Source of the DNA: an uncultured Oscillospiraceae bacterium
GTDB taxonomy: Bacteria > Bacillota > Clostridia > Oscillospirales > Oscillospiraceae
DNA: 18,219 bases
Assembly: GCA_934515035.1 (NCBI GenBank)
Contig: CAKSXP010000008.1
Location: 1-18,219, forward strand
Reading direction: 5' to 3'
The position numbers were made by a program, and so were the translations under genes. Below, one piece after another: positions 1,033-18,198 of this stretch; position 1 is the first letter of the stretch, and the number at the start of each line of letters is the position of its first letter. The notes below the pieces were generated by a model. That model did not search any database. It was not told the origin of the DNA and was given only the letters and a program-made list of their open reading frames with translations.

Positions 1033-1045
1033 GAGGCTGTGCAAT

Positions 1046-2002
1046 ATGTCTCTCAAACATGATGTTTTTCTCCGCCTGTGTCAAACAGGCGGAGGCTTTA
1101 TCTCCGGGCAGGAGCTGGCGGACTCGCTGGGCGTCTCCCGTGCAGCGGTGTGGAAGGCCATCACCGCGCTTCGAAACGACGGCGCCGTCATCGAATCCGT
1201 CACTAACCGCGGCTACCGTCTTTCAGAGGGCTGTGACCTGCTCTCCGAAGAGCTCATAACCGCCTTCCTCCGTCACAGGGACATCCGCGTCTCCGTCTTT
1301 GACTGCATCGACTCCACAAACAACGAGGCGAAGCGCCGTCTCGCCGGAGGGGAGCCGGGCGCCGAGCTCATCGTCGCCTCACAACAGACTGCGGGCCGCG
1401 GACGCATGGGCCGTTCGTTCTATTCTCCGGCGGAGACCGGGCTTTACATGAGCCTCGCCCTCTCCTGCCCCGGCGGATTTGAAAGCGCGGTAAGCTCCAC
1501 CACCGCAGCAGCAGTGGCTGTTGTTCGGGCGATCGAACGGCTCACGCCCCTGCGTCCGCTGATAAAATGGGTCAACGACATTTATCTGGACGGCCGCAAG
1601 GTCTGCGGCATACTGACCGAGGGCGTAACGGATTTCGAGACCGGAGCGCTGACCGGCATAGTCGTCGGGATCGGCATCAACCTCCATACGGAGGAGTTTC
1701 CCTCGGATATCGGCGCTGTCGCCGCGTCGCTCGGTTCCTCGTCCCCCGGACGATGCGTCCTTGCCGCCGCCGTCGCCGACGAACTTGCGGACATCATCGA
1801 GGCTTATCCGGACAGGAGCTATCTGGATTTCTATCGCAGCAGGAGCCTCGTCATCGGCCGCCGCATAACCTACACCGCCGCCGGCGTTTCAGCCGATGCG
1901 GAGGCTGTCGGCATCGATGATCTCGGCGGACTTATCGTCAGAAAGGACAATGGTAAAACGCTTACTCTCTCTTCCGGAGAGATATCTCTGCGTCTGCAAT
2001 GA
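1046..2002 (+). CDS. birA: Bifunctional biotin protein ligase / biotin operon repressor BirA
   Basis: 318 residues, the usual length of two-function BirA. It activates biotin to biotinyl-AMP, transfers it to a lysine of biotin-dependent carboxylase carrier domains, and as the biotinyl-AMP complex represses biotin genes. An N-terminal winged helix-turn-helix occupies roughly residues 5-60 (GQELADSLGVSRAAVWKAI), so this is the regulatory form, not a ligase-only protein. The catalytic domain has the biotinyl-AMP loop GRGRMGR (117-123) and KWVND (174-178), which contains the lysine and Asn-Asp of the active site, then GILTEG; a small SH3-like C-terminal domain follows. The start at 1046 is set by AGGAGG at 1031-1036, which overlaps the stop codon of the SEDS gene, so the two are probably co-transcribed. 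A BirA-type operator stands before the convergent bioY gene, giving this repressor an obvious local target. Confidence 0.96.
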   Translation: MSLKHDVFLRLCQTGGGFISGQELADSLGVSRAAVWKAITALRNDGAVIESVTNRGYRLSEGCDLLSEELITAFLRHRDIRVSVFDCIDSTNNEAKRRLAGGEPGAELIVASQQTAGRGRMGRSFYSPAETGLYMSLALSCPGGFESAVSSTTAAAVAVVRAIERLTPLRPLIKWVNDIYLDGRKVCGILTEGVTDFETGALTGIVVGIGINLHTEEFPSDIGAVAASLGSSSPGRCVLAAAVADELADIIEAYPDRSYLDFYRSRSLVIGRRITYTAAGVSADAEAVGIDDLGGLIVRKDNGKTLTLSSGEISLRLQ

Positions 2003-2016
2003 CCGTAAAAGAATTT

Positions 2017-2071
2017 ACGCCCTCTCCCGAATCTTGCTTTCGCCTGCATTCGGGAGAGGGCGTCATTTTTT
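2017..2071 (+). terminator. Rho-independent terminator after birA
   Basis: A perfect 16-bp stem pairs ACGCCCTCTCCCGAAT (2017-2032) with its complement at 2048-2063 around a 15-nt loop. It is followed by TTTTTT at 2066-2071. It begins 14 nt after the birA stop. Read from the minus strand, the stem is followed by a weaker T-rich stretch, so it may also stop bioY transcripts arriving from the right. Confidence 0.92.
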
Positions 2072-2111
2072 ATATCCGTGTCTGCGGCACGGGAGAGCTT
2101 TGGTTCAAGTA

Positions 2112-2642
2112 TTATAGGTTAACATAATTTTTAATTTTGTTGGATATGTAAACTGCAAGCAGCAGCTTTACAATGTCGGGAATGACAAACGGCACGACGC
2201 ATTTCACAAGCGCCGCGGCAAAGCCGATCCCGCTCCGGCCGCTGGCATAAACGAGCGTGTACCACAGCGTGCCAAAGGCATAGCATACGATCAGCCCGAG
2301 AAAAACAGAGAGCAGCATGATAATTTTTCCGCTCCCAAAGCAGCGCGTCATTAGCCAGTAAACAAGGCCGCTGAGCAAAAAGCTGACGATATATCCGCCC
2401 GTCGCGCCGAGCAGGACGCCGATGCTGCCGCGAAAACCGGCGAACACCGGAAGCCCGACTGCTCCGAGCAGAATATACAGCAGTATCGCCAGTGTTCCGC
2501 GTTTTCCACCCAGCGTGCACAGAGCCGCGAAAACGGCAAAGGTCTGGAGCGTGAACGGAACATCCGCCGGTATGCTCAGCCACGAGCAGAGCGTAATAAG
2601 CACCGCGAACAGAGCTATATATGTCATTTCCTTTACTTTCAT
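2112..2642 (-). CDS. bioY: BioY, substrate-binding (S) component of the ECF biotin transporter
   Basis: 176 residues from the chosen start, typical of BioY, a six-helix membrane protein that binds biotin and takes it up, alone or with the shared ECF module (EcfA, EcfA', EcfT). Seen: a nearly continuous series of hydrophobic helices; the family block VPFTLQTFAVFAALCTLGGKRG close to the N-terminus; LLGAVGLPVFAGFRGSIGVLLGATGGYI in the middle; and a C-terminal segment with FVIPDIVKLLLAV, all characteristic of BioY. The frame is open a further 16 codons upstream, but ATG at 2642 is preferred because GGGGAGG lies eight bases before it and MKVKEM is a typical BioY N-terminus. No ECF energy-coupling genes are in the window. 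Regulation is probably by BirA through the operator at 2683-2716. Confidence 0.95.
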   Translation of the reverse strand: MKVKEMTYIALFAVLITLCSWLSIPADVPFTLQTFAVFAALCTLGGKRGTLAILLYILLGAVGLPVFAGFRGSIGVLLGATGGYIVSFLLSGLVYWLMTRCFGSGKIIMLLSVFLGLIVCYAFGTLWYTLVYASGRSGIGFAAALVKCVVPFVIPDIVKLLLAVYISNKIKNYVNL

Positions 2643-2661
2643 ATTCTCAGCCTCCCCGCGA

Positions 2662-2690
2662 AGGATAACATGCAGAGTGCGGATTGTCAA
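2662..2690 (-). promoter_or_regulatory. Candidate bioY promoter overlapping the BirA operator
   Basis: On the minus strand TTGACA (2690-2685, inside the operator) is followed after 17 nt by TATCCT (2667-2662). The -35 is perfect but the -10 is weak. The implied start near 2655 would leave a leader of only about a dozen bases that cuts into the ribosome site, so the real promoter may lie slightly further upstream, still within or beside the operator. Confidence 0.35.
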
Positions 2691-2716
2691 CCTCTAATTA
2701 ATTATCGGTTTACAAT
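2683..2716. promoter_or_regulatory. BirA (biotin repressor) operator upstream of bioY
   Basis: The left half ATTGTCAACC (2683-2692) and right half GGTTTACAAT (2707-2716) form a 10-bp inverted repeat with one mismatch and a 14-nt AT-rich spacer. This matches the known BirA operator pattern of TTGTAAACC and GGTTTACAA half sites with a 14-16 nt gap. It sits 41 bp upstream of the bioY start codon. On the minus strand the left half contains TTGACA (2690-2685), a possible -35 element, so bound BirA would block polymerase. That this BirA binds here is inferred from motif match and gene context. Confidence 0.88.
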
Positions 2717-2744
2717 TCTCAAATAAGCTCCGCCGTGTTTGCCC

Positions 2745-2772
2745 TTGTCAACCGATGGTATCATATGATAAT
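2745..2772 (+). promoter_or_regulatory. Candidate promoter of the GNAT acetyltransferase gene
   Basis: TTGTCA at 2745-2750 and GATAAT at 2767-2772 are separated by 16 nt and lie 43 bp upstream of the start codon at 2816. The surrounding sequence is AT-rich. This is a reasonable vegetative sigma-factor promoter. Confidence 0.55.
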
Positions 2773-2815
2773 ATACCGGCAGTCCGATAAACTCAGCTTC
2801 GGGGAGGCGGGAACA

Positions 2816-3322
2816 ATGTATATTGAAACCGGCAGAATGGTCATTCGTGATTTCATCATGGACGATCTGAGCGATATGCACGCCATTCTGGGCGATGACG
2901 AAACAATGAAAAATTGCGAACCTGCATATACCCTTGAGAAAACGGCTGAATTTCTGCGGAAGTTCTGCATAGAAAAAAGAGGCGCCGCTGCGGCTGTGCA
3001 CAGGGAGACCGGCAGAGTTATCGGCTATATTCTCTTTAACGAGTGTCTCGAAGAGGTGTATGAGATCGGCTGGTTTTTCAACAGGAATTTCTGGAGAAAA
3101 GGTTTTGCTTTTGAAGCCTGCAAAGCGGTCATCGACTATGCTTTTGACAAAATGAACGTACACAAAATATTCGCCGAGACGATAGACGGGCTCGTATCCG
3201 TTGGATTAATGAAAAAGCTCGGAATGAAACCTGAGGGAATACAGAGAAGTCAGACAAAGGATACGTCCGGTAATTGGGCAGACCTGTACCTTTACGGTAT
3301 TCTTGCGGAGGACAGACGCTGA
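2816..3322 (+). CDS. GNAT-family N-acetyltransferase, RimJ/RimL-like
   Basis: 168 residues, a single GNAT domain. These enzymes move an acetyl group from acetyl-CoA to an amine, in this branch often the N-terminus of a ribosomal protein, a small metabolite or an antibiotic; the substrate here is unknown. Seen: the N-terminal strand TGRMVIRDFIMDD common to RimJ/RimL proteins, the strand TGRVIGYILFN, then YEIGWFFNRNFWRKGFAFEACKAV. The WRKGFA stretch is the acetyl-CoA pyrophosphate-binding loop, slightly off the usual Q/R-x-x-G-x-G/A. The segment VHKIFAETI...SVGLMKKLGM is the typical C-terminal motif, although the usual Asn before the S-x-x-L-x-x-K-L-G-F pattern is replaced (DGLVSVGLMKKLGM). The frame is open upstream to 2735, but ATG at 2816 has GGGGAGG a few bases ahead and gives the standard family N-terminus. 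Confidence 0.88.
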   Translation: MYIETGRMVIRDFIMDDLSDMHAILGDDETMKNCEPAYTLEKTAEFLRKFCIEKRGAAAAVHRETGRVIGYILFNECLEEVYEIGWFFNRNFWRKGFAFEACKAVIDYAFDKMNVHKIFAETIDGLVSVGLMKKLGMKPEGIQRSQTKDTSGNWADLYLYGILAEDRR

Positions 3323-3339
3323 TGCGCGCATGATGACAA

Positions 3340-3379
3340 AAGCCCGGCTGCATAATTACAGCCGGGCTTGAACCTTTTT
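3340..3379. terminator. Terminator hairpin between the convergent GNAT and DUF975 genes
   Basis: An 11-bp perfect stem pairs AAGCCCGGCTG (3340-3350) with CAGCCGGGCTT (3359-3369) around an 8-nt loop. On the plus strand TTTTT follows at 3375-3379 after a short gap; on the minus strand the stem runs into TTTTG. A second, smaller hairpin (CCGGTC 3387-3392 with GACCGG 3398-3403) lies nearer the DUF975 stop. Together they probably separate the two converging transcripts. Confidence 0.75.
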
Positions 3380-3432
3380 ATGAACACCGGTCAGCCGGAC
3401 CGGACTTCATACTATAAAATTATAAATTCGTT

Positions 3433-4191
3433 TTACGACTCCCAGGGCGGCTTGCCGTCCGTTCCGGAACCGCCGTTATTGCGGAAATCCGCGTCGTAAC
3501 CGGGACCGGCTGACGCGCCGTCTGCAAGCGAGACATAGAACCAGACGTTTGTAAGCTCCATATACGGGCTGACCCAGAGCGTTACAAAGGGGATAATGCA
3601 GAGGATAGACCAGCCGATAAAGCTCAGGTCGAGGACAAAAAGCTCGGCCTTGTGCCCCTGCATCAGAAGCTTGCTTTCTCTTATGCACTCAAGAGCGGAG
3701 CACTCCGGATGGTCAAGCAGGATATATACCGCCATTCTGTACCGGTACGCCGCGATGATACCGGGGATGAAAAACAGCATCGACCAGAGCGCAACGAATA
3801 TGCTCATCAGAATATTGAGCCACAGCACTCTGAAAAACATTCCGAACGGGTCAAACAGATTGCCGTAGGCCGGTGCGCGGTGACGCACCGCGTTGAGACA
3901 GAACAGGCTGTAGCCAACGCCGAGGATCGTGGACATTATGCCCAGCGCCAGCACGATTATCGAGGCAGCCGGCGTGATCTCTATCTGCGGCAGAATAAAC
4001 GACGTCTCGCCGTTATATGCAGCTGTCAGCAGCATCTTCAGCTGAAGGATCTCTCCGCTGAGCTTTGCGCTGAGCAGATCCAGCACATATATTATCAGAA
4101 CATATACAAGTGTGACAAGAATGACGTTCGGCTTTGTCTGTTTTATATCGATTTTTGCATTCGCTTTCAGCGCCGCGCGATTAAGCGTCAT
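3433..4191 (-). CDS. DUF975 family integral membrane protein
   Basis: 252 residues. The function of DUF975 proteins is unknown; they are common polytopic membrane proteins of Clostridia and Bacilli. Hydrophobic segments are visible at about residues 22-41, 74-98, 115-145 and 185-210. The family signature is FFIPGIIAAYRYRMAVYILLDHP followed by SALECIRESKLLMQGHKAELFVLDLSFIGW, where the helical E-S-K-x-L-M-x-G segment precedes the last membrane helices. The last 25 or so residues are polar and rich in Gly, Asp and Pro, ending GKPPWES, a flexible tail. ATG at 4191 is supported by GGAGGG seven bases upstream. It stands alone on its strand with its own promoter (4234-4262). Confidence 0.87.
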   Translation of the reverse strand: MTLNRAALKANAKIDIKQTKPNVILVTLVYVLIIYVLDLLSAKLSGEILQLKMLLTAAYNGETSFILPQIEITPAASIIVLALGIMSTILGVGYSLFCLNAVRHRAPAYGNLFDPFGMFFRVLWLNILMSIFVALWSMLFFIPGIIAAYRYRMAVYILLDHPECSALECIRESKLLMQGHKAELFVLDLSFIGWSILCIIPFVTLWVSPYMELTNVWFYVSLADGASAGPGYDADFRNNGGSGTDGKPPWES

Positions 4192-4233
4192 ACATGTTCC
4201 CTCCGTTTCTGGATAGTTTATGTATTTTTCTGT

Positions 4234-4262
4234 ATTATATCAGTCTGCCGTGCAAAAATCAA
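4234..4262 (-). promoter_or_regulatory. Promoter of the DUF975 gene
   Basis: On the minus strand TTGATT (4262-4257) and a perfect TATAAT (4239-4234) are separated by 17 nt, ending 43 bp before the start codon at 4191. Spacing and sequence fit a standard vegetative promoter. Confidence 0.75.
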
Positions 4263-4318
4263 TGCCATCAGGTGCACGTCAACGGTTTTTTCGGGGCTTT
4301 AGCCTGCTTTTTTTGCAC

Positions 4319-4347
4319 TTGACATAACGCACACCTGAGTGTACTAT
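4319..4347 (+). promoter_or_regulatory. Promoter of nrdD
   Basis: A perfect -35 TTGACA (4319-4324), a 17-nt spacer and TACTAT (4342-4347) as -10 predict a start near 4354 and a leader of about 70 nt. The -10 lies inside the first NrdR-like box and the second box lies just downstream of the predicted start, a layout suited to repression. Confidence 0.82.
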
Positions 4348-4388
4348 ATATGTGCTAATCAACTTTACATAATCACAACATCTTGTGT
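4341..4388 (+). promoter_or_regulatory. Tandem NrdR-like boxes controlling nrdD
   Basis: Box 2, TCACAACATCTTGTGT (4373-4388), matches 13 of 16 positions of the NrdR consensus ACACWATATATWGTGT. Box 1, GTACTATATATGTGCT (4341-4356), is weaker at 10 of 16 but keeps the CTATATAT core. They start exactly 32 nt apart. Known NrdR sites come in pairs about 31-32 bp centre to centre, placing both on the same face of the helix. The nrdR gene itself is not in the window. Confidence 0.75.
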
Positions 4389-4424
4389 TTTGCGTCAGTA
4401 TACAGAAATATAGGAGGAACAGGG

Positions 4425-6758
4425 ATGACACTTACAAGTATTGTCAAAAGAGACGGGCGCACCGTTCCTTTCGATAAGCAGAAAATAGCAAATGCTATCG
4501 TAAAGGCCTTTGACGCGACCTATAAGCCCGGTCAGGAGGACGTTGCCGGGCGTCTCGCGGACGAGGTTTGCTCCACTCTTGAGGTCGAGGGCATCGAGAC
4601 GCCCGAGGTCGAGCATATACAAGATATAGTGGAGAAGGTCCTTATGGACAACGGATATGTCGCCACGGCCAAGGCATACATCCTCTACCGTTCCGAACGC
4701 AGCAAGGTGCGCGAAATGAACACCCGGCTCATGCATACCTATGAGGAGATCACCTTTTCCGACGCAAAGGATTCCGATGTCAAGCGCGAAAACGCCAACA
4801 TCGACGGCGACACCGCGATGGGCACCATGCTCAAATACGGCTCCGAGGGTGCAAAGCAGTTCTACAACATGTTTGTCCTCAAGCCCGAGCACGCCAAGGC
4901 GCACAGCGAGGGCGACATCCACATTCACGATCTCGACTTCTATACGCTCACAACGACCTGCACCCAGATCGATATAGTAAAGCTCTTCAAGGACGGCTTC
5001 TCCACCGGTCACGGCCATCTGCGCGAGCCGAACGACATCGCCTCCTATTCCGCGCTGTGCTGCATAGCGATACAGTCCAACCAGAACGACCAGCACGGCG
5101 GACAGAGCATCGTGAACTTCGACTACGGCATGGGCGACGGCGTTAAAAAGACCTTCAAGCGCCTGTACCGCCAGAATATCGCCAAGGCGCTCATGCTCTG
5201 GCACGATATCGACGATCCCGAGGATCAGGTAAAGGATATCATCGCGGAGGTCGAAAAGGAGACCGGGCTTTATCCCTGCATCGAGGGCATCGAGCCCTAT
5301 CAGGAGGCCGAACTGCCCAAGCTCATCACCGCTTTCGGCGACGAGGAGGGCATGAAAAAAGCTCAGAAAGCCGCCTATCACTATGCGTATAAGGAGACCG
5401 ACCGCGCCACCTATCAGGCAATGGAGGCCTTTATCCACAACCTCAACACGATGCATTCGCGCGCCGGTGCACAGACTCCCTTCTCCTCCATCAACTACGG
5501 CATGGACACCTCCCCCGAGGGCCGCATGGTCATGAAAAACGTAATGCTCGCCACGGAGGCCGGCCTTGGAAACGGTGAGACCGCCATATTCCCCATACAG
5601 ATCTTCCGCGTCAAAAAGGGCGTTTCCTGCGACCCCGGCGACCCGAACTACGACCTGTTCAAGCTTGCCTGCCGCGTCAGCGCCAAGCGCCTGTTCCCGA
5701 ACTTCTCGTTCGTCGACGCCCCGTTCAACCTTCAGTACTACAAGCCCGGCCATCCCGAGACCGAGATCGCATACATGGGCTGCCGTACCCGCGTTATAGG
5801 CAATGTCTATGATCCCACACGCGAGATATGCAACGGCCGCGGCAACCTCTCCTTCACCACCATCAACCTTCCCCGTCTTGCCATCAAGGCAAAGGGCGAC
5901 CTCAACGCCTTTTTCGAAGATCTCGACTCCAAGATGGAGCTTGTCATCGACCAACTCATGGAGCGCTTCGCCATCCAGGCCAAAAAGAAGGTCAAGAACT
6001 ATCCCTTCCTCATGGGCCAGGGCGTCTGGATAGACAGCGAAAAGCTCGGCTGGAACGACGAAGTGGGCGAAGTTCTCAAGCACGGCACGCTCACCTGCGG
6101 CTTCATCGGCCTTGCCGAATGCCTCAAGGCGCTCATCGGCGTCCACCACGGCGAGAGCGAAAAGGCACAGGCTCTCGGCCTTGACATCATCGCCCACATG
6201 CGCAAGCGCATGGACGACGAATGCAAAAAGACCGGTCTCAACTTCTCCCTGATAGCAACTCCCGCGGAGGGACTTTCCGGCCGCTTCGTTAAAATAGACA
6301 AGCAGCGCTACGGCATCATTGAGGGCGTAACAGACAGGGATTACTACACCAACAGCTTCCATATCCCCGTCTATTATCCCATCACCGCCTTTGAGAAGAT
6401 CCGCAAGGAAGCGCCGTACCACGCCCTGACAAATGCCGGTCACATCAGCTATATCGAGATGGACGGAGATCCGACCGACAACCTCGAGGCTTTTGAGAAG
6501 ATCGTACACTACATGGGTGAATGCGGCATCGGCTACGGCTCGATCAACCACCCCGTTGACCGCGACCCAATCTGCGGCTTCAACGGCATAATCAAGGACC
6601 AGTGCCCCGGCTGCGGACGCACGGAGGACGACGGCGTTCCCTTTGAGCGCATCCGCCGCATCACCGGATACCTTGTCGGCACGCTCGACCGCTTCAATAA
6701 TGCAAAGCGCGCCGAGGAGCATGACCGCGTTAAGCACGGCATCAGCGACATAAAATAA
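4425..6758 (+). CDS. nrdD: Anaerobic (class III) ribonucleoside-triphosphate reductase NrdD
   Basis: 777 residues, normal for NrdD. It reduces ribonucleoside triphosphates to deoxyribonucleotides by glycyl-radical chemistry, using formate or a thioredoxin-like reductant, and works only without oxygen. Residues about 3-95 form an ATP-cone (VKRDGRTVPFDKQKIANAI), the domain through which dATP/ATP sets overall activity. The barrel contains HDLDFY, NTMHSRAGAQTPFSSINYG and AYMGCRTRVIGN, whose Cys (residue 453) is probably the thiyl-radical cysteine. Near the C-terminus HPVDRDPICG and CPGCGR give the zinc-site cysteines C717, C727 and C730. RRITGYLVGTLDRFN then carries the radical glycine at about residue 748, in the usual place about 30 residues from the end. 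ATG at 4425 is chosen over the longer open frame because AGGAGG (4412-4417) is seven bases upstream. Its activase nrdG follows after one intervening gene. Confidence 0.97.
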   Translation: MTLTSIVKRDGRTVPFDKQKIANAIVKAFDATYKPGQEDVAGRLADEVCSTLEVEGIETPEVEHIQDIVEKVLMDNGYVATAKAYILYRSERSKVREMNTRLMHTYEEITFSDAKDSDVKRENANIDGDTAMGTMLKYGSEGAKQFYNMFVLKPEHAKAHSEGDIHIHDLDFYTLTTTCTQIDIVKLFKDGFSTGHGHLREPNDIASYSALCCIAIQSNQNDQHGGQSIVNFDYGMGDGVKKTFKRLYRQNIAKALMLWHDIDDPEDQVKDIIAEVEKETGLYPCIEGIEPYQEAELPKLITAFGDEEGMKKAQKAAYHYAYKETDRATYQAMEAFIHNLNTMHSRAGAQTPFSSINYGMDTSPEGRMVMKNVMLATEAGLGNGETAIFPIQIFRVKKGVSCDPGDPNYDLFKLACRVSAKRLFPNFSFVDAPFNLQYYKPGHPETEIAYMGCRTRVIGNVYDPTREICNGRGNLSFTTINLPRLAIKAKGDLNAFFEDLDSKMELVIDQLMERFAIQAKKKVKNYPFLMGQGVWIDSEKLGWNDEVGEVLKHGTLTCGFIGLAECLKALIGVHHGESEKAQALGLDIIAHMRKRMDDECKKTGLNFSLIATPAEGLSGRFVKIDKQRYGIIEGVTDRDYYTNSFHIPVYYPITAFEKIRKEAPYHALTNAGHISYIEMDGDPTDNLEAFEKIVHYMGECGIGYGSINHPVDRDPICGFNGIIKDQCPGCGRTEDDGVPFERIRRITGYLVGTLDRFNNAKRAEEHDRVKHGISDIK

Positions 6759-6775
6759 ACGCGCGTGTCAATTTT

Positions 6776-6810
6776 ACCGCGGCATCTTGAAATACGGATG
6801 CCGCGGTTTT
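6776..6810 (+). terminator. Rho-independent terminator after nrdD
   Basis: An 11-bp perfect stem pairs ACCGCGGCATC (6776-6786) with GATGCCGCGGT (6797-6807) around a 10-nt loop and leads into a short T-run, then more T-rich sequence to 6820. It begins 18 nt after the nrdD stop. It would reduce read-through into the SH3b gene and nrdG. Confidence 0.82.
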
Positions 6811-6855
6811 ATACTGTTTTCACGGCAACACTAAAATAACTGGAAGGTCATCACC

Positions 6856-7701
6856 ATGAAAAAAAGAGCTCTCTCCTTTTTCCTTGCGCTGCTGCTCATC
6901 GCATTGCTGACCACTGCCGCCTTTGCCGACGCTATCATCTTTCCGGACAACTCCTGGGACGTGGATTACTATGTCTATGTAACGACGCCCGACGGCGGCC
7001 TGAACATGCGGGAAGGCCCCGGAGTTGACTATGCGCTGATAACAACGATACCGGACTATGAACGTCTGCATGTCCTTGTTGAGAATTCAGCCAGCTGGGG
7101 ATACGTCCAATACGGATATAACTACGGCTGGGTATATCTCGGTCAGACATCAAGCGATCTTTTCAGCCTTGGCACCACCTCTGATTACTATACCTATGTT
7201 GTCTCGCCCGACGGCCATCTGAATATGCGCATCGGTCCAAGCTCAAGCTGTGACCTTATTCTGGGCATACCGACCGGGACACAGATACGCATAACCCGCG
7301 AGTGCTCCGGCTGGGGACTGACCGGCTACGATAACTTCAGCGGCTGGGTATATCTCGGCGAGACCTCGACAGCGGCCCCGACGACGTCCCCGGCCGCATC
7401 TCCGACGCCTTCTCCGACGGACGGATCCGGCGTGGCTGCGCCGAAGCCGGTCGGCTCTCCGGCTCCCGCTACACCCGCTCCGGAGGCTCCGGCTGTATCC
7501 GGCAGAGACGATACCGTCAAGGAAACCGCTCCCGCTTCCGCTGTCAAATCCCCGTTCTCCGCAGACAGCCAGAGATCCGAAAGCGAAAACCCAAAAACCA
7601 GCTCATCCATATCCAGTACGACGATGCTTGTCTCCATACTCGGCGGGCTTATAATCATTCTCGCGGCGCTGATCATCTTCATCGTGCTGCGCCATAAATA
7701 G
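6856..7701 (+). CDS. Exported, membrane-anchored protein with two bacterial SH3 (SH3b) domains
   Basis: 281 residues. A signal peptide is clear (KKR, hydrophobic core to about residue 20, AFADA near 22-26). Two SH3_3-type repeats follow at about 40-97 and 112-170. Each has the family pattern of LNMR and G-P (GGLNMREGPG; HLNMRIGPSS) and ends in GWVYLGQT or GWVYLGET. Residues 171-252 are a Thr/Pro/Ser/Ala-rich linker, and residues about 257-278 form one membrane helix ending in RHK. SH3b domains usually bind peptidoglycan or peptides, so the expected topology is SH3b pair outside, spacer through the wall, C-terminal anchor. No enzymatic domain is present. GGAAGG at 6842-6847 supports this start. 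It sits between nrdD and nrdG, with nrdG only 20 nt downstream, so it is co-transcribed with nrdG; a role in nucleotide reduction is not implied. Confidence 0.88.
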   Translation: MKKRALSFFLALLLIALLTTAAFADAIIFPDNSWDVDYYVYVTTPDGGLNMREGPGVDYALITTIPDYERLHVLVENSASWGYVQYGYNYGWVYLGQTSSDLFSLGTTSDYYTYVVSPDGHLNMRIGPSSSCDLILGIPTGTQIRITRECSGWGLTGYDNFSGWVYLGETSTAAPTTSPAASPTPSPTDGSGVAAPKPVGSPAPATPAPEAPAVSGRDDTVKETAPASAVKSPFSADSQRSESENPKTSSSISSTTMLVSILGGLIIILAALIIFIVLRHK

Positions 7702-7721
7702 AAACGGAAGTGAATCGCATA

Positions 7722-8222
7722 ATGAGAATCGCAGACTTTGTCCATGACTCCATCGTCGACGGTCCCGGATTCCGCTTTACCCTGTTCACGCAGGGCTGCC
7801 CCCACCACTGCGAGGGCTGTCATAATCCCCAGACGCACGATCCCGACGGCGGAAAAGAGGTGTCCGTCGATGAGATCATCAGGATCATGCTCTCCAACCC
7901 GCTCACCGACGGACTCACGCTTTCCGGAGGAGACCCGTTCTTCCAGCCGGAGGATTGCGCAGCTGTCGCAAGGGCCGCAAAAGCCCACGGGCTCAATGTA
8001 TGGACATACAGCGGCTGGACATTCGAGCAGCTTCTGCGTGACGGACGCCCCGGTGTGCGCGAGCTGCTCGAGCTTACGGATGTGCTGGTGGACGGGCCGT
8101 TTGTTCTGTCTCAGCGCAGCCTTTCGCTCAAATGGCGCGGCAGCCGCAATCAGCGCCTTATCGACGTTCCGAAAAGTCTCCAGCTGGGCGAGCCCGTACT
8201 CTGGGAAAAAACCGGCGACTGA
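7722..8222 (+). CDS. nrdG: Anaerobic ribonucleotide reductase-activating protein NrdG (radical SAM)
   Basis: 166 residues, usual for NrdG. It binds a 4Fe-4S cluster and S-adenosylmethionine, cleaves the latter reductively and generates the glycyl radical on NrdD. Seen: DSIVDGPGFRFTLFTQGCPHHCEGC, with the C-x3-C-x2-C cluster motif at C26, C30 and C33; then HNPQTHDP; the SAM-binding SGGDPFFQP; and VLVDGPF with the C-terminal RGSRNQRLIDV, all NrdG signatures. The frame also allows a GTG at 7710, but ATG at 7722 gives the standard N-terminus and uses GGAAG (7706-7710) as a modest ribosome site. No separate promoter or NrdR box is visible before it. Its expression therefore depends on the SH3b transcript or on read-through of the nrdD terminator. 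Confidence 0.95.
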   Translation: MRIADFVHDSIVDGPGFRFTLFTQGCPHHCEGCHNPQTHDPDGGKEVSVDEIIRIMLSNPLTDGLTLSGGDPFFQPEDCAAVARAAKAHGLNVWTYSGWTFEQLLRDGRPGVRELLELTDVLVDGPFVLSQRSLSLKWRGSRNQRLIDVPKSLQLGEPVLWEKTGD

Positions 8223-8284
8223 TATTATGTCAACCTGTGCGCTATGACCGCCGTCATAGGCTTGCAGAACCTTTTTACAACGCG

Positions 8285-8319
8285 AGACACCGTATGCGAT
8301 AAAATCGCATACGGTGTCT
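8285..8319. terminator. Perfect 16-bp hairpin between convergent nrdG and icd
   Basis: AGACACCGTATGCGAT (8285-8300) pairs fully with 8304-8319, leaving only three unpaired bases (AAA). On the plus strand TTTG and then T-rich sequence follow; on the minus strand no T-run follows. It begins 63 nt after the nrdG stop and ends 7 nt from the icd stop. It is probably the shared end of both transcripts, intrinsic for nrdG and perhaps only a 3' stabilising hairpin for icd. Confidence 0.72.
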
Positions 8320-8325
8320 TTGTAT

Positions 8326-9525
8326 TCATATTCTGCTTTTTATGGAGGCGATAAACTCTTCGCTGTCGGCGATCCTGCTGACCTCCCCGATATATATCGG
8401 CGCGAGATCCTTTGTCACGACACCGGAGCCTATTGTATCGAGACAGGCCTTCTCCAGCCTTCCGGCGAAATTCTCAAGTTTGGTGATACCGTCGAGCTCT
8501 CCGCGCTTTTTCAGCGCGCCTGTCCATGCAAAGATCGTCGCGACGGGATTCGTCGAGGTTTTTTCACCGTTTCTGTATCTGTACCAGTGCTGTGTCACAG
8601 TCCCGTGCGCCGCCTCATACTCATAGTTTCCGTCCGGCGAGACCAGAACGCTCGTCATCATCGCAAGACTGCCGAAGGCCGTTGAGATCATGTCGCTCAT
8701 AACATCTCCGTCATAATTCTTGAGCGCCCACACAACTCCGCCCTTCGAGCGCACAAGCCGCGCCACCGCATCGTCTATAAGCGTGTAGAAATAGGTTATT
8801 CCCGCCTCTGCGAATCTTTCCGCATATTCCTCGTCATACAGCCGCTGAAAAACCGACTTGAAGACACCGTCGTATTTCTTCATTATGGTGTCCTTGGCCG
8901 AGAACCAGAGGTCCTCTTTCTTTCCAAGCGCGAACTCAAAACAGGCTCGGGCAAAGTTCTCTATCGAATCGTCCTTGTTATAGCATCCCTGGAGCACACC
9001 GGGACCTTCAAAATTGAAAACAGTCTGCCTCTGCTCCGTACCGTCAGCCGCGGTAAACACAAGCTCGGCCTTTCCCGGTCCCTCAATGCGCATCTCCGTG
9101 TCCTTATACAGATCGCCATAGCTGTGACGCGCGACGGTGATCGGCTTTTCCCACGTCGGAATATACGGTCTGAGCCATTTGCAGGGTATCGGCGTGCGGA
9201 ATGTTGTGCCGTCAAGTATCGCGCGGATGGTGCCGTTCGGGCTCTTCCACATCTCATGGAGGCCATATTCCTCCACTCGCTGTGCGTTCGGCGTTATTGT
9301 CGCGCACTTGACGCCAACATGGTGCCGCTTGATGGCCTCCGCCGCCTCCGTTGTTACCGCGTCGCGCGTCGCGTCGCGGTTTTCAAGACCGAGGTCATAA
9401 TACTCGGTCCTGAGCTCGACAAACGGCTCTATCAGCTCCTGCTTTATCATGCGCCACAGAACGCGGGTCATCTCGTCTCCGTCCAGTTCGACGATGGGAT
9501 TTGTCATTTTGATCTTTTCCATCAT
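8326..9525 (-). CDS. icd: NADP-dependent isocitrate dehydrogenase, eukaryotic-like subfamily II
   Basis: 399 residues. It oxidatively decarboxylates isocitrate to 2-oxoglutarate, making NADPH. The sequence resembles homodimeric eukaryotic cytosolic/mitochondrial IDH rather than E. coli Icd. It shows GDEMTRVLW near the N-terminus, YDLGLENRDATRD, VGVKCATITP and KSPNGTIR with the isocitrate-binding Ser, Asn and Arg (S95, N97, R101). ARHSYGD follows, whose Arg133 is equivalent to human IDH1 Arg132. Also present are KYDGVFKSVFQ, LIDDAVAR, KNYDGDVMSD (metal-binding Asp residues), MMTSVLV and EAAHGTVTQHW...TSTNPVATIFAW. It starts at the ATG whose ATGA overlaps the aconitase stop, with GAGAGG just upstream; a second ATG follows immediately. 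It is translationally coupled to aconitase and catalyses the next step. Confidence 0.95.
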   Translation of the reverse strand: MMEKIKMTNPIVELDGDEMTRVLWRMIKQELIEPFVELRTEYYDLGLENRDATRDAVTTEAAEAIKRHHVGVKCATITPNAQRVEEYGLHEMWKSPNGTIRAILDGTTFRTPIPCKWLRPYIPTWEKPITVARHSYGDLYKDTEMRIEGPGKAELVFTAADGTEQRQTVFNFEGPGVLQGCYNKDDSIENFARACFEFALGKKEDLWFSAKDTIMKKYDGVFKSVFQRLYDEEYAERFAEAGITYFYTLIDDAVARLVRSKGGVVWALKNYDGDVMSDMISTAFGSLAMMTSVLVSPDGNYEYEAAHGTVTQHWYRYRNGEKTSTNPVATIFAWTGALKKRGELDGITKLENFAGRLEKACLDTIGSGVVTKDLAPIYIGEVSRIADSEEFIASIKSRI

Positions 9526-11732
9526 TTTTTCCTCTCTGCATACCAGTTCATCAGGCAGCCTGCAAGCAGTATTTCCCGTTCCTGCCCGGTGAGTTCCGGA
9601 AGACGGAAGGTTATGCTTTTGACCCCAAACGCGGTAATGACAAGCGCGGGCACAGTCTCTCCGCCGCTTTCAACAATGCTTCTGATGCCGGGGATATAAA
9701 CGAAGTCTCCGGCCGTATAGTCGAACTCCTCTTCTGTCATCAGCGGGAGCATGCCCCAGTTGATGCAGTTGGAGCGATAGCGCTTTGTGGCGAACTCCCG
9801 GCAGATATTGGCGCTGCCTCCGAGCACGCGCTGGCAGGACGCCGCCTGCTCACGCGCGCTGCCGTCGCCGGGCATCGTTGCGTATATGACGGAGCCGATG
9901 TGCGTTTTGTCGAGAACGTCCGCGCCTAGCTCCGCGCGCTCCAGCGCCGAGAGTATCTCCTCATCGGGAACCCCGTTCCGGCGCGACGACTCCAGTTCCG
10001 CCGTTCTTTCCGTACGTCCGACATATTCCGGGTCCCGGCGCGAAAGAGTGAACCGGGCAAGCTTTATCGGATTGGAACGGTAGCTCGAGGTCTCTCCGGA
10101 GGGTATCAGTTCGTCCGTCGTTGTCACGGGGTCGTGGATGACGCTGTCCAGACGCATGAGCAGATTTTCGGACAGCGCCGGTATTTCGGGCCACGCGGTT
10201 ATATTGGGGCCGTAACGCAGTTCCGCGCCCTCCTCCGGCTTTCCGAAGCCGAAGTAAACGCGCCTGCGGTATACGCCGCCGTCAAAGGCACTGCCTGACG
10301 GTGCGGGAGGCGTGTAATCGATGTCCGCGGCGGAGGTCAGTATCCCGCCGTTTGCCGCAGTTGCGGCGATGCTTCGCGTATCCATGAGGATGACGGACGC
10401 TATCTGGCTGTCAGACGGCTTGCTGCGCGTCGTGTGGCGGATGGAGACTGCATCGTTGGCAGGCACATCTCCCGCGCCGAAGCAGGGGCCGCAGAAGCAG
10501 GGCTTGAACGCTGCTCCGCTTTCCATCAGCGACTGCTGAACACCGTTTCTGATAAGCTCAAGGTTGACCGGTATACTGGACGGGTATACAGACAACGAGA
10601 AATATCCGTTTCCGGCACTTTTCCCCTCGAGTATCGCAGCGGCCTCCGCTATGTTGTCATACATTCCGCCAGCGCAGCCCGCGATGATTCCCTGGTCAAC
10701 GACCAGCTTTCCGTTGCGCAGCTTGTCGCACAGATGCAGCGAAACGCCGCCGGAGAGGCTCTTTTCCGCCTCCTGCTCGCACCGGCGCAGGATATCTCCC
10801 GCGTTTGCGGAGAGCTCCCGTATCGTGAAAGCCTTCGACGGGTGGAACGGGAGCGCCGCCATCGGCTCCACCGCCGAAAGGTCTATCTCTATCATGCGGT
10901 CATAAACAGCACCGTCAGTCGCGCGCAGGGACTTATAATCCTCCGCTCTGCCGTGTGCTGCAAAGTATTCCTCGGTCTTTTCGTCCGTTTCCCAGATGGA
11001 GCTGAGACAGGCCGTTTCCGTCGTCATGACGTCGATGCCTATCCTGTAATCCATCGGCAGGCCGCCGAGCCCCGGCCCGGCAAATTCCAGGACTCTGTTC
11101 TTGACAAAGCCGTTGTCATACACCGCGCCGCAGAGGGCTATCGCAACATCGTGCGGGCCGACGCCGCGGTTCGGTGTGCCCGTCAGCCAGACGAGCACGA
11201 CCTCGGGCGCGGCAACATCATAAGTATTCTCAAGCAGCTGACGCACGATCTCGGGGCCGCCCTCGCCGATGCCCATCGTGCCAAGCGCGCCATAGCGCGT
11301 GTGGCTGTCGCTGCCGAGTATCATACGGCCGACGCCGGACATCATCTCGCGCGCATACTGGTGGATGACGGCGACATTGGCGGGAACATATATGCCGCCG
11401 TATTTTCTTGCGGCGGAAAGCCCGAACACATGGTCGTCTTCGTTTATTGTTCCGCCGACGGCGCAGAGGCTGTTGTGGCAGTTCGTCATGACATACGGCA
11501 CCGGAAAACGCTCCAGTCCGCTGGCTTTGGCCGTCTGTATGATCCCGACATAGGTTATATCGTGCGAGATAAGGCTGTCAAAGCGTATCTCCATGCGTGC
11601 CGGATCGGCGGAAGCGTCATGCGCCCGCATTATCTGATATGCCATCGTTTTCTCACGTCCGCCAGCGTCCGGCCCGCATGGCACCGGGCAGCCGTTTTTC
11701 AGCATGACCGTCTGGCTGTTAAGCTTTATCAT
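9522..11732 (-). CDS. Aconitate hydratase (compact clostridial/Aquifex-type aconitase)
   Basis: 736 residues, shorter than AcnA (about 890). It should isomerise citrate to isocitrate. The three 4Fe-4S ligands are recognisable: C353 in IIAGCAGGMYDN, which replaces the usual SCTNSS-type motif, and C414 and C417 in CFCGPCFGAGD. GSDSHTRYG (140-148) matches the GTDSHT active-site motif. The C-terminal swivel domain has PGDGSAREQAA (R628, usually SSRE) and CREFATKRYRSNCINWGMLPL, as in aconitases. ATG at 11732 follows an AGAGG ribosome site by seven bases. Position upstream of and overlapping isocitrate dehydrogenase, and divergent from citrate synthase, makes citrate the expected substrate. Because the motifs diverge, some uncertainty remains against other aconitase-family hydrolyases such as homoaconitase. 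Confidence 0.9.
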   Translation of the reverse strand: MIKLNSQTVMLKNGCPVPCGPDAGGREKTMAYQIMRAHDASADPARMEIRFDSLISHDITYVGIIQTAKASGLERFPVPYVMTNCHNSLCAVGGTINEDDHVFGLSAARKYGGIYVPANVAVIHQYAREMMSGVGRMILGSDSHTRYGALGTMGIGEGGPEIVRQLLENTYDVAAPEVVLVWLTGTPNRGVGPHDVAIALCGAVYDNGFVKNRVLEFAGPGLGGLPMDYRIGIDVMTTETACLSSIWETDEKTEEYFAAHGRAEDYKSLRATDGAVYDRMIEIDLSAVEPMAALPFHPSKAFTIRELSANAGDILRRCEQEAEKSLSGGVSLHLCDKLRNGKLVVDQGIIAGCAGGMYDNIAEAAAILEGKSAGNGYFSLSVYPSSIPVNLELIRNGVQQSLMESGAAFKPCFCGPCFGAGDVPANDAVSIRHTTRSKPSDSQIASVILMDTRSIAATAANGGILTSAADIDYTPPAPSGSAFDGGVYRRRVYFGFGKPEEGAELRYGPNITAWPEIPALSENLLMRLDSVIHDPVTTTDELIPSGETSSYRSNPIKLARFTLSRRDPEYVGRTERTAELESSRRNGVPDEEILSALERAELGADVLDKTHIGSVIYATMPGDGSAREQAASCQRVLGGSANICREFATKRYRSNCINWGMLPLMTEEEFDYTAGDFVYIPGIRSIVESGGETVPALVITAFGVKSITFRLPELTGQEREILLAGCLMNWYAERKK

Positions 11733-14532: not shown

Positions 14533-14875
14533 CTCGTTTCCTCCTTTGTCTGTTTTATATAGTTTACTCTGCGGAAGATAAGATGTAAATTAGACAAAAA
14601 CACAAATCTTCTTTTCCGAAAAATCTATTATTGTCTAAATTAAAGTTTAAACTTTCACTATCGGCTTTTTCAGAATTGCTTGCCAATTAACTATCAAAAA
14701 ATCCAGTTATATTGCGTTATTCTGGCCGAAACAGTACAACTTATCCAAAATTCGCGCTTTTATAAAATTCTTCCGTAAAATGACGGGAGCCGAACATATG
14801 CCGGACGGTTGTTATTGTCTGACGGTCAGCCTTATGATATAATGACGATCTATAATATGAAAAAGGAGCTGCAAT
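14533..14875. other. AT-rich 343-bp divergent intergenic region
   Basis: No gene or RNA was recognised here. It holds a perfect 14-nt palindrome AAAGTTTAAACTTT (14642-14655); an 8-bp inverted repeat TTAGACAA (14590-14597) and TTGTCTAA (14631-14638); CTGACGGTCAG (14819-14829), a near palindrome beside the -35 of the rightward promoter; and that promoter at 14815-14843. Minus-strand TATATA about 30 bp upstream of the SDR start is a possible -10, but it lacks a convincing -35. Confidence 0.6.
14815..14843 (+). promoter_or_regulatory. Promoter of the DUF308 / HD-GYP-like / SLH operon
   Basis: TTGTCT (14815-14820), a 17-nt spacer and a perfect TATAAT (14838-14843) lie 32 bp before the start codon at 14876. 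CTGACGGTCAG overlaps the edge of the -35 and could be an operator. A second TATAAT at 14851-14856 has no good -35. Confidence 0.75.
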
Positions 14876-15484
14876 ATGAAACACATGAAAGAATTCGTAA
14901 AGGGCGCTCTGACCGATTACGTTCTGCTTGCCATACTCTTTATCGCGCTCGGAATAATCTTTCTCGTATTCCCGGAGACCTCCGGTAAGCTTGTATGCTA
15001 TCTTCTTGCCTCGGCGCTCTGTCTGCTCGGTCTGGTCCGTACCGTGAAGTATTTCCGCCGGCGTGTTGCATACAGCGAATACCGGCTGGATCTTGTCAGC
15101 GGCATAATCCTGCTCGGAGTCGGCGTTTTTGTTTTTGCAAAGCCGGAGCTCATCATGTCCATACTGCCGACGGTCATCGGCATCGCCGTCCTTATCGACA
15201 GTCTGGTAAAGCTCCAGAGCACGGTTGATATGCTCCGCCTGCGCGTTTCAAGCTGGTGGCTCTCTCTCATCATCACAGCCGTGACCGCCGTCCTCGGTAT
15301 CGTCATGGTGACCGACCCCTTCGGTACCGCCGCCATGCTCCTGCGCTTCATCGGCGTCTCGCTCATAATCGCGGGCGGACTGGACGTCTGGTCCGTCGCC
15401 TCGCTCTCGCACCAGATCAAAAAGTCCCAGCGTTCCTCCGCACAGGACGGAGATTATATCGACGTGGACTGCACGGATGTCTGA
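14876..15484 (+). CDS. DUF308 / HdeD-family membrane protein
   Basis: 202 residues. It contains about six hydrophobic helices arranged as repeated pairs: about 16-33, 37-54, 73-88, 93-110, 127-144 and 153-170. The short loop motif KPELIMSILPTVIGIAVLIDSLVKL is typical of DUF308, the family of E. coli HdeD, linked to acid stress but without a known biochemical activity. The last 30 residues are polar and acidic (DGDYIDVDCTDV), a cytoplasmic tail. AAGGAG at 14863-14868 supports the start. It is the first gene of a three-gene operon; the next begins 22 nt after its stop. Confidence 0.85.
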   Translation: MKHMKEFVKGALTDYVLLAILFIALGIIFLVFPETSGKLVCYLLASALCLLGLVRTVKYFRRRVAYSEYRLDLVSGIILLGVGVFVFAKPELIMSILPTVIGIAVLIDSLVKLQSTVDMLRLRVSSWWLSLIITAVTAVLGIVMVTDPFGTAAMLLRFIGVSLIIAGGLDVWSVASLSHQIKKSQRSSAQDGDYIDVDCTDV

Positions 15485-15506: not shown

Positions 15507-16895
15507 ATGCCTGATTTTTATGAAGCTGTCTGGATCTTTCTGATCTATTCTTTCCTTGGCTGGTGCACCGAGGTCGTGTTCCAGGCGGCATGCCACGGAA
15601 AATTTATCAACCGCGGCTTTCTCAACGGTCCGGTCTGCCCGATTTACGGCTTCGGCGTTCTCAGCGTCGTCATCTGCCTGACGCCGCTCAAGCACAGCTT
15701 TATTCTGCTGTTCGTCGGTTCCGTGATACTGACCTCCGCATTGGAGTTTGTGACCGGCTTTGTGCTGGAAAAGTTCTTCCACGACAAATGGTGGGACTAT
15801 TCCAACGAGCCTTTCAACCTGATGGGCTATATCTGCCTGCTCTTTTCCCTTCTCTGGGGCATCGCCTGCGTTATTGTCATTGATGTTATCCATCCCATAA
15901 TCATGCGTGCCGTCGACTGGATACCGCACACGCTGGGCATCGTCCTCATCTGCGTTTTTCTCGCCGCAATGATAGCCGACGCCGTTGTCTCCATCTCCGC
16001 CGCCGTCAAGATGAAGCATCGCCTCATCCGCAGGCAAGAGCTTGCGGAAAAGCTTCATGACGTATCCGACCACATCGGCGAATCCCTTGCTGAAAACGCG
16101 ATCGATGTGCGCGAAAAGCTGGAAAGCGGAAAGAGCGAGCTTGAACAGCTGCGCGAAAAATACCGCGAGCTTGCGGAAAACCACACCCCCGTCCAGAAGC
16201 GTCTGCTCGAATCATTCCCTGACCTGAAAAAAGGCCGCTACCGCCGGAGCATCGAACGCATAGACCTGTTCTGGCGCGCCGAAAAAGCCGCCGCATCAAG
16301 AAAAAAGCCTTCTCGCATCGCGGCCTTCCGTGCCGAGCGCGAGCCCGTTTCCCTCTTCGGTTACCGCAGCATCCTTGGGCCTGTGGCCGACGCCGCGGAG
16401 CGCCGGAGTCCGGAGACGGACGGCCATTCCGAAAACACCGCGAAACTCGTGTCCGCTCTCTGCGGCGCCGTGCGCATCAACGCATATGACGCCGCCTGCA
16501 CCGAGACCGCCGCGGCGCTCTGGGGCGTCAGCCTTATCTCCGGCAGCGAGGCGGAGGGCGCGGAACTCCTGAGCGCGGCCGGATGTCCGGACAGGGTCTG
16601 TCTTACTCTCCGCTCCTGCTCCGAGCATTGGGACGGAAGCGGCCCGCGGGCGCTTGCCGGCGAAACCATCCCGCTCACTTCAAGGATACTGCTGCTCTGC
16701 GGCGATGTGGAAAAGCTCCTTCGCAGCGGCCGCGGCAAAGACGAATGCCGCAGCGTGCTCCTCGACCGGCGCGAAAAGCAGTACGACCCGGCACTGGTTG
16801 ACATAATGTTGGACAATTGGGACAGCATCGTATCGTCGTCCCTTGTTGAAAATTCGGAAAAAGGAGATGTACACAATGACCTCAGGAAAGCTTAA
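15507..16895 (+). CDS. Membrane protein: ABC_trans_CmpB-like N-terminus fused to a degenerate HD-GYP-like domain
   Basis: 462 residues. Residues about 5-168 hold about five membrane segments and match the putative ABC-transporter type IV family (PF06541): IYSFLGWCTEV, INRGFLNGPVCPIYGFG, WWDYSNEPFNLMGYICL. Residues about 172-228 are charged and probably a helical or coiled-coil linker, followed by a basic stretch to about 280. Residues about 303-445 resemble an HD-GYP domain: GHSENTAKL, then SEHWDGSGPRALAGETIPLTSRILLLCGDVEKLL, then YDPALVDIML. The metal site is lost: the usual LHDIGK position reads LWGVSL, HHE reads CSE, and GYP reads GPR. Cyclic di-GMP hydrolysis is therefore not expected; binding or protein interaction is possible. 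The ATG at 15507 is preferred to TTG at 15498, with AGGAG at 15493-15497. It overlaps the next gene by 20 nt, so translation is probably coupled. The HD-GYP call is by eye. Confidence 0.8.
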   Translation: MPDFYEAVWIFLIYSFLGWCTEVVFQAACHGKFINRGFLNGPVCPIYGFGVLSVVICLTPLKHSFILLFVGSVILTSALEFVTGFVLEKFFHDKWWDYSNEPFNLMGYICLLFSLLWGIACVIVIDVIHPIIMRAVDWIPHTLGIVLICVFLAAMIADAVVSISAAVKMKHRLIRRQELAEKLHDVSDHIGESLAENAIDVREKLESGKSELEQLREKYRELAENHTPVQKRLLESFPDLKKGRYRRSIERIDLFWRAEKAAASRKKPSRIAAFRAEREPVSLFGYRSILGPVADAAERRSPETDGHSENTAKLVSALCGAVRINAYDAACTETAAALWGVSLISGSEAEGAELLSAAGCPDRVCLTLRSCSEHWDGSGPRALAGETIPLTSRILLLCGDVEKLLRSGRGKDECRSVLLDRREKQYDPALVDIMLDNWDSIVSSSLVENSEKGDVHNDLRKA

Positions 16896-18198
16896 AAAAT
16901 CGCTCAGCCTGATCCTTGCGCTTGTGCTCACAATAAGCGTTATGGCCGCGCCGGCCTTCGCCGCAGGTTCTCTCGGCAGCTTTGTCGGCAAGCGCAGCTA
17001 CCGCTGGGGACAGTACAGCGACGTAAACGAAAGCAAATGGTACGGAGCAAATCAGCAGGCCGTGATAAAGTCCGCATATCAGTTCGGGCTCATGGAAGGC
17101 AATGCCGACGGCACTTTTGCCCCCGAGAGCATCTTTCTCATCTGCCAGATCATAACCATGGCTGCACGTATCCACAACATATACAACGGCGGCACCGGGA
17201 TATTCCCGAGCGGCAGCCCGTGGTATCAGCCTTATGTTGACTACGCGACAGCAAACTCCATCGTTTCTGCCGACTACGGTTTCGATCTTACCGAACCCGC
17301 GCCCCGCTGGCTCGTTGCCGACATATTCGCAAGCTGCCTTCCGGAGAGCGAACTTCCGTCCCTCACGACCATAACGAGCCTTCCCGACGTCGATGTGAAC
17401 TCTTATTACAATCACAGCATAGTTCTGCTCTATGAGGCGGGCGTACTGCGCGGCAGCGACGAATACGGCACCTTCCATCCCTATGACTACATCACGCGCG
17501 CCGAGACGGCTGCCATCGCTTGCCGTCTGGTCTCTCCCTCGCTCCGCAAGGCTCTGGATCCTCCTGATTATCTTATCAGAGGCTACACCGACCAGCAGAT
17601 CGCGGATTACTTCGTCGAGATCGCCTTCGGCGGCGAATACGGCGGCGACAACACGCGGCTCTGCAAATGGAGCGACAGGATCGTAGCCGACATACAGGGC
17701 TATACGACCGACGAGGACTGGGAAAAGATCGACGCGCTTTTTGCAAAGCTCAATTCCATCGAGGGCTTCCCCGGCATCGTTCCGGCGGACTATTACTCCC
17801 TTATCCCGAATCTCACGGCGTATGTCGTGCCTCCCAAAGACTTTGGTGAATACATCTACGGACTTCCCGACGACGACCTCTGGGGCTTCGCGGAGTACTA
17901 TTATAATACCACTACCAGTATTATCTATCAGGGAACGGTCCTTCTCCCCTCCGAGGAGGCAAACCAGTGGTACCGCAATTCCATCATCTGTGAAGAGCTT
18001 ATCCAGGTCCTCGGCCTGGCACAGGATTCCTGGCTGTATCCGGACAGCATCTTCTATCAGGACTCCAACGACACGCAGTGGCCCACCGAGCTTGACTGGA
18101 CCGTTGTGCGGCTGCTTTATAACCCCAGAATGAAAGCCGGTATGACGAAGGCTCAGGCCCGCGCGACAGCGCTCCAGCTTATAGATTCCTGGAAATAA
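16876..18198 (+). CDS. Exported S-layer-homology protein with a C-terminal DUF2927-like domain
   Basis: 440 residues. The signal peptide is clear (GKLKKSL, hydrophobic core, APAFAA near 25-30). SLH-type repeats, which bind pyruvylated secondary cell-wall polymer, follow. The first is at about 46-103 (YSDVNESKWY, GLMEGNADGTFAP). A weaker one is at about 115-155 (WYQPYVDYATANSIV). The third, at about 168-220, is the best preserved (LPDVDVNSYYNHSIVLLYEAGVLRGSD, ITRAETAAI). Residues about 240-440 resemble DUF2927: ICEELIQVLGLAQDSWLYPDSIF and LDWTVVRLLYNPRMKAGMTKAQA. The first pattern recalls a metalloprotease helix without the HExxH histidines, so no protease activity is claimed. ATG at 16876 is chosen over upstream in-frame ATGs because AAGGAG (16861-16866) fits it and the signal peptide starts there. 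It overlaps the preceding gene by 20 nt. Confidence 0.88.
   Translation: MTSGKLKKSLSLILALVLTISVMAAPAFAAGSLGSFVGKRSYRWGQYSDVNESKWYGANQQAVIKSAYQFGLMEGNADGTFAPESIFLICQIITMAARIHNIYNGGTGIFPSGSPWYQPYVDYATANSIVSADYGFDLTEPAPRWLVADIFASCLPESELPSLTTITSLPDVDVNSYYNHSIVLLYEAGVLRGSDEYGTFHPYDYITRAETAAIACRLVSPSLRKALDPPDYLIRGYTDQQIADYFVEIAFGGEYGGDNTRLCKWSDRIVADIQGYTTDEDWEKIDALFAKLNSIEGFPGIVPADYYSLIPNLTAYVVPPKDFGEYIYGLPDDDLWGFAEYYYNTTTSIIYQGTVLLPSEEANQWYRNSIICEELIQVLGLAQDSWLYPDSIFYQDSNDTQWPTELDWTVVRLLYNPRMKAGMTKAQARATALQLIDSWK

Follow-up and report, generated by a model that had tools for sequence, protein, structure and literature searches.

The window analysed here, a stretch of 18,219 nucleotides from an uncultured Oscillospiraceae bacterium (contig CAKSXP010000008.1), encodes a protein, P0001, in which a PF06541 (CmpB) membrane domain is joined by a helical linker to a degenerate HD-GYP domain. 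Its sequence and those of its relatives suggest that this protein descends from CmpB-HD-GYP fusions, most of which, among those compared, have kept the catalytic site, and that in its lineage the catalytic residues were lost in graded steps, followed by most of the substrate pocket. We consider it somewhat more probable than the reverse that the product is a membrane-anchored pseudo-enzyme, whose residual HD fold would serve as a docking or dimerisation module on a CmpB membrane protein. As far as our literature search shows, three things are new: the combination of CmpB with HD-GYP, the stepwise series of losses and the accompanying shift of constraint to the linker.

A CmpB membrane protein with a degenerate HD-GYP domain

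A preliminary description based on the nucleotide sequence alone had proposed a PF06541-type membrane domain fused to an HD-GYP-like domain, and both halves of this proposal held in profile and structure comparisons. PF06541 matches the N-terminal part with 187.3 bits (cut-off 25.9), and the structure model places five long helices in residues 4-168. The C-terminal part matches PF13487 (HD-GYP) with 34.1 bits (cut-off 27.2), over profile positions 82-170 of 170 only; it is also matched by PDB sequences, and comparison of the structure model recovers the HD-GYP fold, with the receptor DvhD among the top matches. A model built from the window clade alone had a mean predicted local distance difference test (pLDDT) score of 40.9, which makes it a weak control only. 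An NCBIfam search of the protein returned nothing above threshold, the best match being the NosR family (46.4 bits, cut-off 400). Chance coding of the HD-like domain was rejected, as GC content at third codon positions is 0.78 in the domain versus 0.70-0.73 in three neighbouring genes and is lower at positions 1 and 2. The CmpB name implies an ABC transporter function, but the literature search, which covered its sources in part, found no functional study of PF06541.

Graded loss of the active site

Active-site residues are numbered here after PmGH, for which a published study (PMC4159591) gives the metal ligands E185, H189, H221, D222, H250, H276, H277 and D305 and the catalytic pair D183 and K225. 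There, alanine at D183 or K225 abolished activity and alanine at D305 or E185 reduced it, while replacements at the GYP or R314/K317 sites did not lower it substantially. These positions were followed across 31 aligned CmpB-HD-GYP fusions, made up of P0001, 25 found among 120 listed of 5458 matches and five found among another 120 matches listed. Among these, 24 of the 31 have an intact site (D183, H189, H221, D222, K225, H250, H276, H277, GYP, D305, D308 and R314), with Y at the E185 position, as in DvhD, and R at the K317 position (H in P0016). P0007 has lost D305 alone. P0006 lacks D183, K225 and D305; in addition, its E185 position has changed from Y to G and its K317 position is M. In P0001-P0005, hereafter the dead clade, which comprises four distinct members, P0002 being a 98% copy, H189 is the only one of the eight metal ligands held in common. 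At the E185 position, where intact fusions have Y, the window protein has E303 and the other dead members E, D, N or G.

In addition, in-frame deletions of 21, 1 and 5 residues have removed most of the substrate pocket in all five members. In the window protein the catalytic positions D183 and K225 are occupied by S301 and L343, the GYP Tyr and R314 are deleted and the K317 position is R406. None of the features by which an HD-GYP phosphodiesterase would be recognized (the metal ligands, D183 with K225, and GYP with R314/K317) is present as a set. The loss of GYP, R314 and K317 would not by itself prove inactivity, since alanine at those sites does not lower PmGH activity to any substantial degree (PMC4159591), but by analogy with the other PmGH mutants the loss of catalytic activity probably preceded removal of the pocket. 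The HD dyad, the second His pair and the GYP Tyr are thus missing, as first described, but the P of GYP, also thought lost, and the first metal His are kept. Both the fusion and the lost ligands are common to the close orthologues (4/4 among the matches listed). The architecture had also been suggested to be undescribed; no published account of a CmpB-HD-GYP protein was found in the literature listings searched, but the fusion recurs, and mostly in intact form among those compared.

Since the fusion recurs and 24 of the 31 compared among the matches listed keep the catalytic site, the dead form is a derived side branch. In a tree of the CmpB and linker columns (31 fusions and 28 CmpB-only proteins, selected from longer lists of matches; a quick method with Shimodaira-Hasegawa-like approximate likelihood ratio test support only), the five dead members cluster together (97), their nearest neighbours being P0006 and, next, P0007 (91 and 91). 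The replacements at the D305 position (G in P0007, P0006 and P0001-P0004, S in P0005) agree with this order. The fusions as a whole do not form one group in this tree, as CmpB-only proteins fall between fusion groups; a single fusion event with later losses of the HD domain and more than one fusion event would both fit. In a tree of the HD domain with nine outgroup HD-GYPs, all 23 fusions included form one group (95) and P0006 joins the dead clade (98); 17 of 26 outgroup rows, eight of the 31 fusions and the tandem HD proteins were left out of it. An earlier tree with all 26 outgroup rows, several of them on long branches and hence subject to a long-branch warning, had joined P0006 and the dead clade to outgroup rows (90) with no single fusion group. 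A survey of 400 genomes from the family of genome G003, 314 of which gave a match, revealed no new close relative among the matches listed; long matches in open frames (485-495 residues) occurred there only in G001-G004, most others being the CmpB part alone.

Constraint has moved from the HD domain to the linker

Among the intact fusions, conservation of the HD domain roughly equals that of CmpB, and the linker varies more freely. When pairwise identities are compared (linker taken as residues 169-285; P0002, P0006 and P0007 outside the two main counts), HD identity equals or exceeds linker identity in all 276 pairs of the 24 intact proteins, and in none of the six pairs of the four distinct dead members. 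At matched CmpB identity (0.77-0.91), 23 intact pairs average 0.65 in the linker and 0.82 in the HD domain, as against 0.85 and 0.69 for the six dead pairs; such pairs share sequences, which makes these figures descriptive rather than independent tests. In the dead clade the stronger constraint thus lies on the linker instead of the HD domain. Linker and HD identities to the four dead sequences are 0.55 and 0.40 for P0006 and 0.38 and 0.33 for P0007, and 0.35 and 0.39 between P0006 and P0007.

The linker of P0001-P0006 carries a basic motif, WRAEKxxAxRxxPSR, which occurs in these six only among 215 proteins searched, and its carriers coincide with those fusions, among the 31, in which D183 and K225 are both missing. 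Nine long proteins (P0025, P0034, P0036, P0041, P0056, P0063, P0065, P0097 and P0104) show a second arrangement, in which a comparable helical linker connects one CmpB-like membrane part to another, and the linker thus appears to be a feature of the CmpB family and not of the HD-GYP domain; an RRxLKAFPDL-type stretch is found in the linkers of these nine proteins and in the fusions.

Relation to known HD-GYP systems

Non-catalytic HD-GYP proteins, including a membrane receptor, have been published before (PMC4159591, PMC13090378). The most useful precedent is DvhD (PDB 9rbz, 9rc0), described in PMC13090378 as a membrane receptor with an HD-GYP domain on a helical stalk, in which SQ replaces HD and MN replaces HH, and which binds cyclic di-GMP without metal and does not hydrolyse it. 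The window protein shares the membrane location, the stalk and a fold without HD dyad or HH pair, and is predicted to be likewise non-catalytic. DvhD differs, on the same source, in carrying dCache and PAS domains in place of CmpB and in keeping both nucleotide-holding loops, the GYP Tyr and R650/Y652, which in the window protein are wholly or partly deleted. Bd1817 (PDB 3tm8) keeps its binuclear iron centre (PMC4159591), whereas in the window clade only one or two ligands are left. The intact fusions (P0008, P0009, P0013 and 21 others) have the same domain order and membrane domain, but differ in having the catalytic site in 24/24 and a lipid kinase gene directly upstream in 5/5 genome loci.

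A closer likeness than DvhD is found in the N-terminal half of V-cGAP3 (PDB 5z7c), where the HH pair is lost, Arg replaces the GYP Tyr and loop 10/11 is shorter by 6, and in the N-terminal HD half of P0122, which reads WDGSGP...GETIPLTSRI, lacks the Tyr and continues into a loop as short as that of the window domain. In both, a second HD-GYP follows the dead half within the same chain, whereas the dead domain of the window protein stands alone on its membrane domain. P0122, P0133, P0140 and P0147 combine tandem HD domains with a LuxR-type domain; the parts missing from the window domain are also missing from the N-terminal half of P0122, and the N-terminal half of P0133 keeps the GYP motif. 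As the dead clade groups with the CmpB fusions in the HD tree, the likeness is probably due to parallel loss. An origin of the dead domain from tandem HD-[HD-GYP] proteins, to which P0122 had drawn attention, was set aside on the same ground, although that tree, lacking tandem proteins, is not a full test.

Docking module, relic or receptor

We lean towards the pseudo-enzyme reading, according to which the residual HD fold would no longer cut or bind a cyclic dinucleotide. Instead it would sit, still folded, where the cytoplasmic helices end and serve there for docking or dimerisation, with the linker and a protein partner now controlling the CmpB membrane domain. A more ambitious version, which we put forward tentatively, is that a membrane-tethered cyclic-dinucleotide phosphodiesterase was converted stepwise into a nucleotide-blind regulator, with control of CmpB moved to the newly fixed basic motif, leaving a natural series from enzyme- to partner-controlled proteins. 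The most serious challenge comes from the idea that the HD domain is a functionless relic on its way to being lost and that only CmpB and linker matter, as in many CmpB-only proteins; we hold this to be rather unlikely. It would be consistent with the HD-like part varying more than any other segment in the dead clade, with CmpB-only proteins of about 260-320 residues filling much of the matches listed, and with P0011 (262 residues) and P0020 (267 residues) ending near the linker-HD junction of the window protein. However, the reading frame is open across the domain in all five dead members, P0001 aligns with P0002-P0005 over residues 286-445 with no gaps (P0005 has two extra residues after 445), and 81 of 161 domain positions, including the WDG.GP...IP loop, are invariant in the four dead sequences compared. 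Neutrality was assessed by protein-level simulation in place of the ratio of non-synonymous to synonymous substitutions, with 400 runs at each of two settings and P0002 (three replacements) left out. Replacements in P0004 and P0005 proved more conservative by mean BLOSUM score than all 400 neutral runs at both settings, and the domain is thus probably kept from drifting freely.

Several points nevertheless weigh against a retained module. The share of positive scores is less extreme, the observed value being reached by 27 and 16 of 400 runs for P0004 and by 16 and 2 for P0005. P0003 fits neutrality: runs as conservative as the observed replacements numbered 49 and 62 of 400 by mean score, and 336 and 320 by positive share. 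Stop-free frames are not decisive either, as they arose in 26 and 69 of 400 neutral runs for P0005, 87 and 145 for P0004 and 107 and 162 for P0003. The HD-like domain changes fastest of all parts, as slow decay would also give, and the Tyr of the retained GYP loop is itself lost. The six dead pairs derive from four sequences and are not independent, and the linker motif was defined after the sequences had been inspected.

Two further possibilities keep a ligand, and we regard each as improbable. In one, the domain would be a non-catalytic cyclic di-GMP receptor like DvhD, in which binding of the nucleotide would splay the helical stalk and signal to the membrane domain. DvhD itself, as a published membrane receptor, is the precedent for this, and the five intact-fusion genomes surveyed each hold 10-23 GGDEF matches (E up to 0.001). 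Three of these genomes also have a PilZ domain, and their gene content supports, by association only, the intact fusion as a cyclic-dinucleotide enzyme. Against the receptor reading, when the contacts of DvhD are mapped by hand through alignments, five of the eight canonical ones (L577, K582, Y621, R650 and Y652) are lost with the three deletions, two are changed (Y523 to E303, E668 to R422) and one is kept in kind (M646 to L404), and at the bridging site P567, R569 and K520 are replaced by S347, A349 and R300. Since parts of both nucleotide-holding loops and the GYP Tyr are deleted, binding of cyclic di-GMP, which the preliminary description had envisaged without hydrolysis, is now disfavoured and looks unlikely from the sequence. 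In the other, a different small ligand, such as another nucleotide or a lipid product, would occupy a remodelled pocket; in favour of this are 21 positions, invariant in the four dead sequences, at which 80% or more of the 24 intact fusions carry another residue, and the lipid kinase gene adjoining the intact relatives, but much of the pocket is deleted and no homologue found suggests a ligand.

Gene neighbourhood

The three genes at this end of the window, in the order DUF308, target and SLH/DUF2927, lie on the plus strand and are tightly packed (Table 1). Promoter-like sites of the kind found upstream number 11 on both strands versus 2.4 expected.

Table 1. Coordinates of the target gene, its parts and adjoining features in the window
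Feature	Position	Strand	Remarks
Promoter-like site, TG before second hexamer, upstream of DUF308 gene	14815..14843	+	Consensus scan, 10/12 matches; no evidence of function
DUF308/HdeD-like membrane protein gene	14876..15484	+	PF03729, E 1.5e-19; 22 bases upstream of target
Target gene (CmpB, linker and degenerate HD-GYP parts)	15507..16895	+	462 aa; P0001
PF06541 (CmpB) membrane domain	15531..15995	+	Residues 9-163; profile match
Helical linker	15996..16361	+	Residues 164-285; predicted cytoplasmic; unusually conserved in dead clade
Basic linker motif WRAEKxxAxRxxPSR	16272..16316	+	Residues 256-270; in P0001-P0006
Degenerate HD-GYP domain	16362..16844	+	Residues 286-446
H307 (H189 position)	16425..16427	+	Sole PmGH metal-ligand position of eight kept in all five dead-clade members; alignment
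21-residue deletion site	16556..16557	+	Most of loop 7/8 and metal His H250; placed by alignment
Retained loop CSEHWDGSG-P...IPL	16617..16676	+	Residues 371-390; both His and GYP Tyr lost, remainder kept
5-residue deletion site	16721..16722	+	Loop 10/11, equivalents of PmGH R314 and Y316; placed by alignment
Downstream gene, SLH domains (repeats) and DUF2927	16876..18198	+	ATG inside last 20 bases of target

In the five intact-fusion loci (L001-L004 and L012; Pfam domain names assigned in L001 and L012), a DAGK/YegS-type lipid kinase gene directly precedes the fusion in every case. Locus L012 has the order DUF308, DAGK, fusion, its DUF308 homologue, 46% identical to that of the window, lying two genes upstream of the intact fusion. 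No DAGK match was found anywhere in the window, where DUF308 is kept. All five loci (for example, L001 at 5019-10390 and L012 at 647-6037) show the same order of DAGK/YegS, intact fusion, an opposite-strand E1-E2 ATPase-like gene and an aldolase gene, the last read by eye as a class II fructose-bisphosphate aldolase. In three other loci (L100, L107 and L108), DUF308-like genes 27-29% identical to the window's immediately precede CmpB genes in the same orientation, with no HD-GYP match nearby within the short stretches examined.

Implications

PF06541 is a widespread clostridial membrane family, with at least 579 relatives confirmed here, for which no functional study turned up in the literature listings searched. 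Its fusion to an intact HD-GYP domain links the family to cyclic-dinucleotide signalling, and the gene order links it to a DAGK/YegS lipid kinase. The dead clade offers a case in which the HD-GYP pocket has been removed while the fold stays, a likeness it shares with the N-terminal half of V-cGAP3-type proteins, and the graded loss series provides a direct way to test where in the protein the signal is carried.
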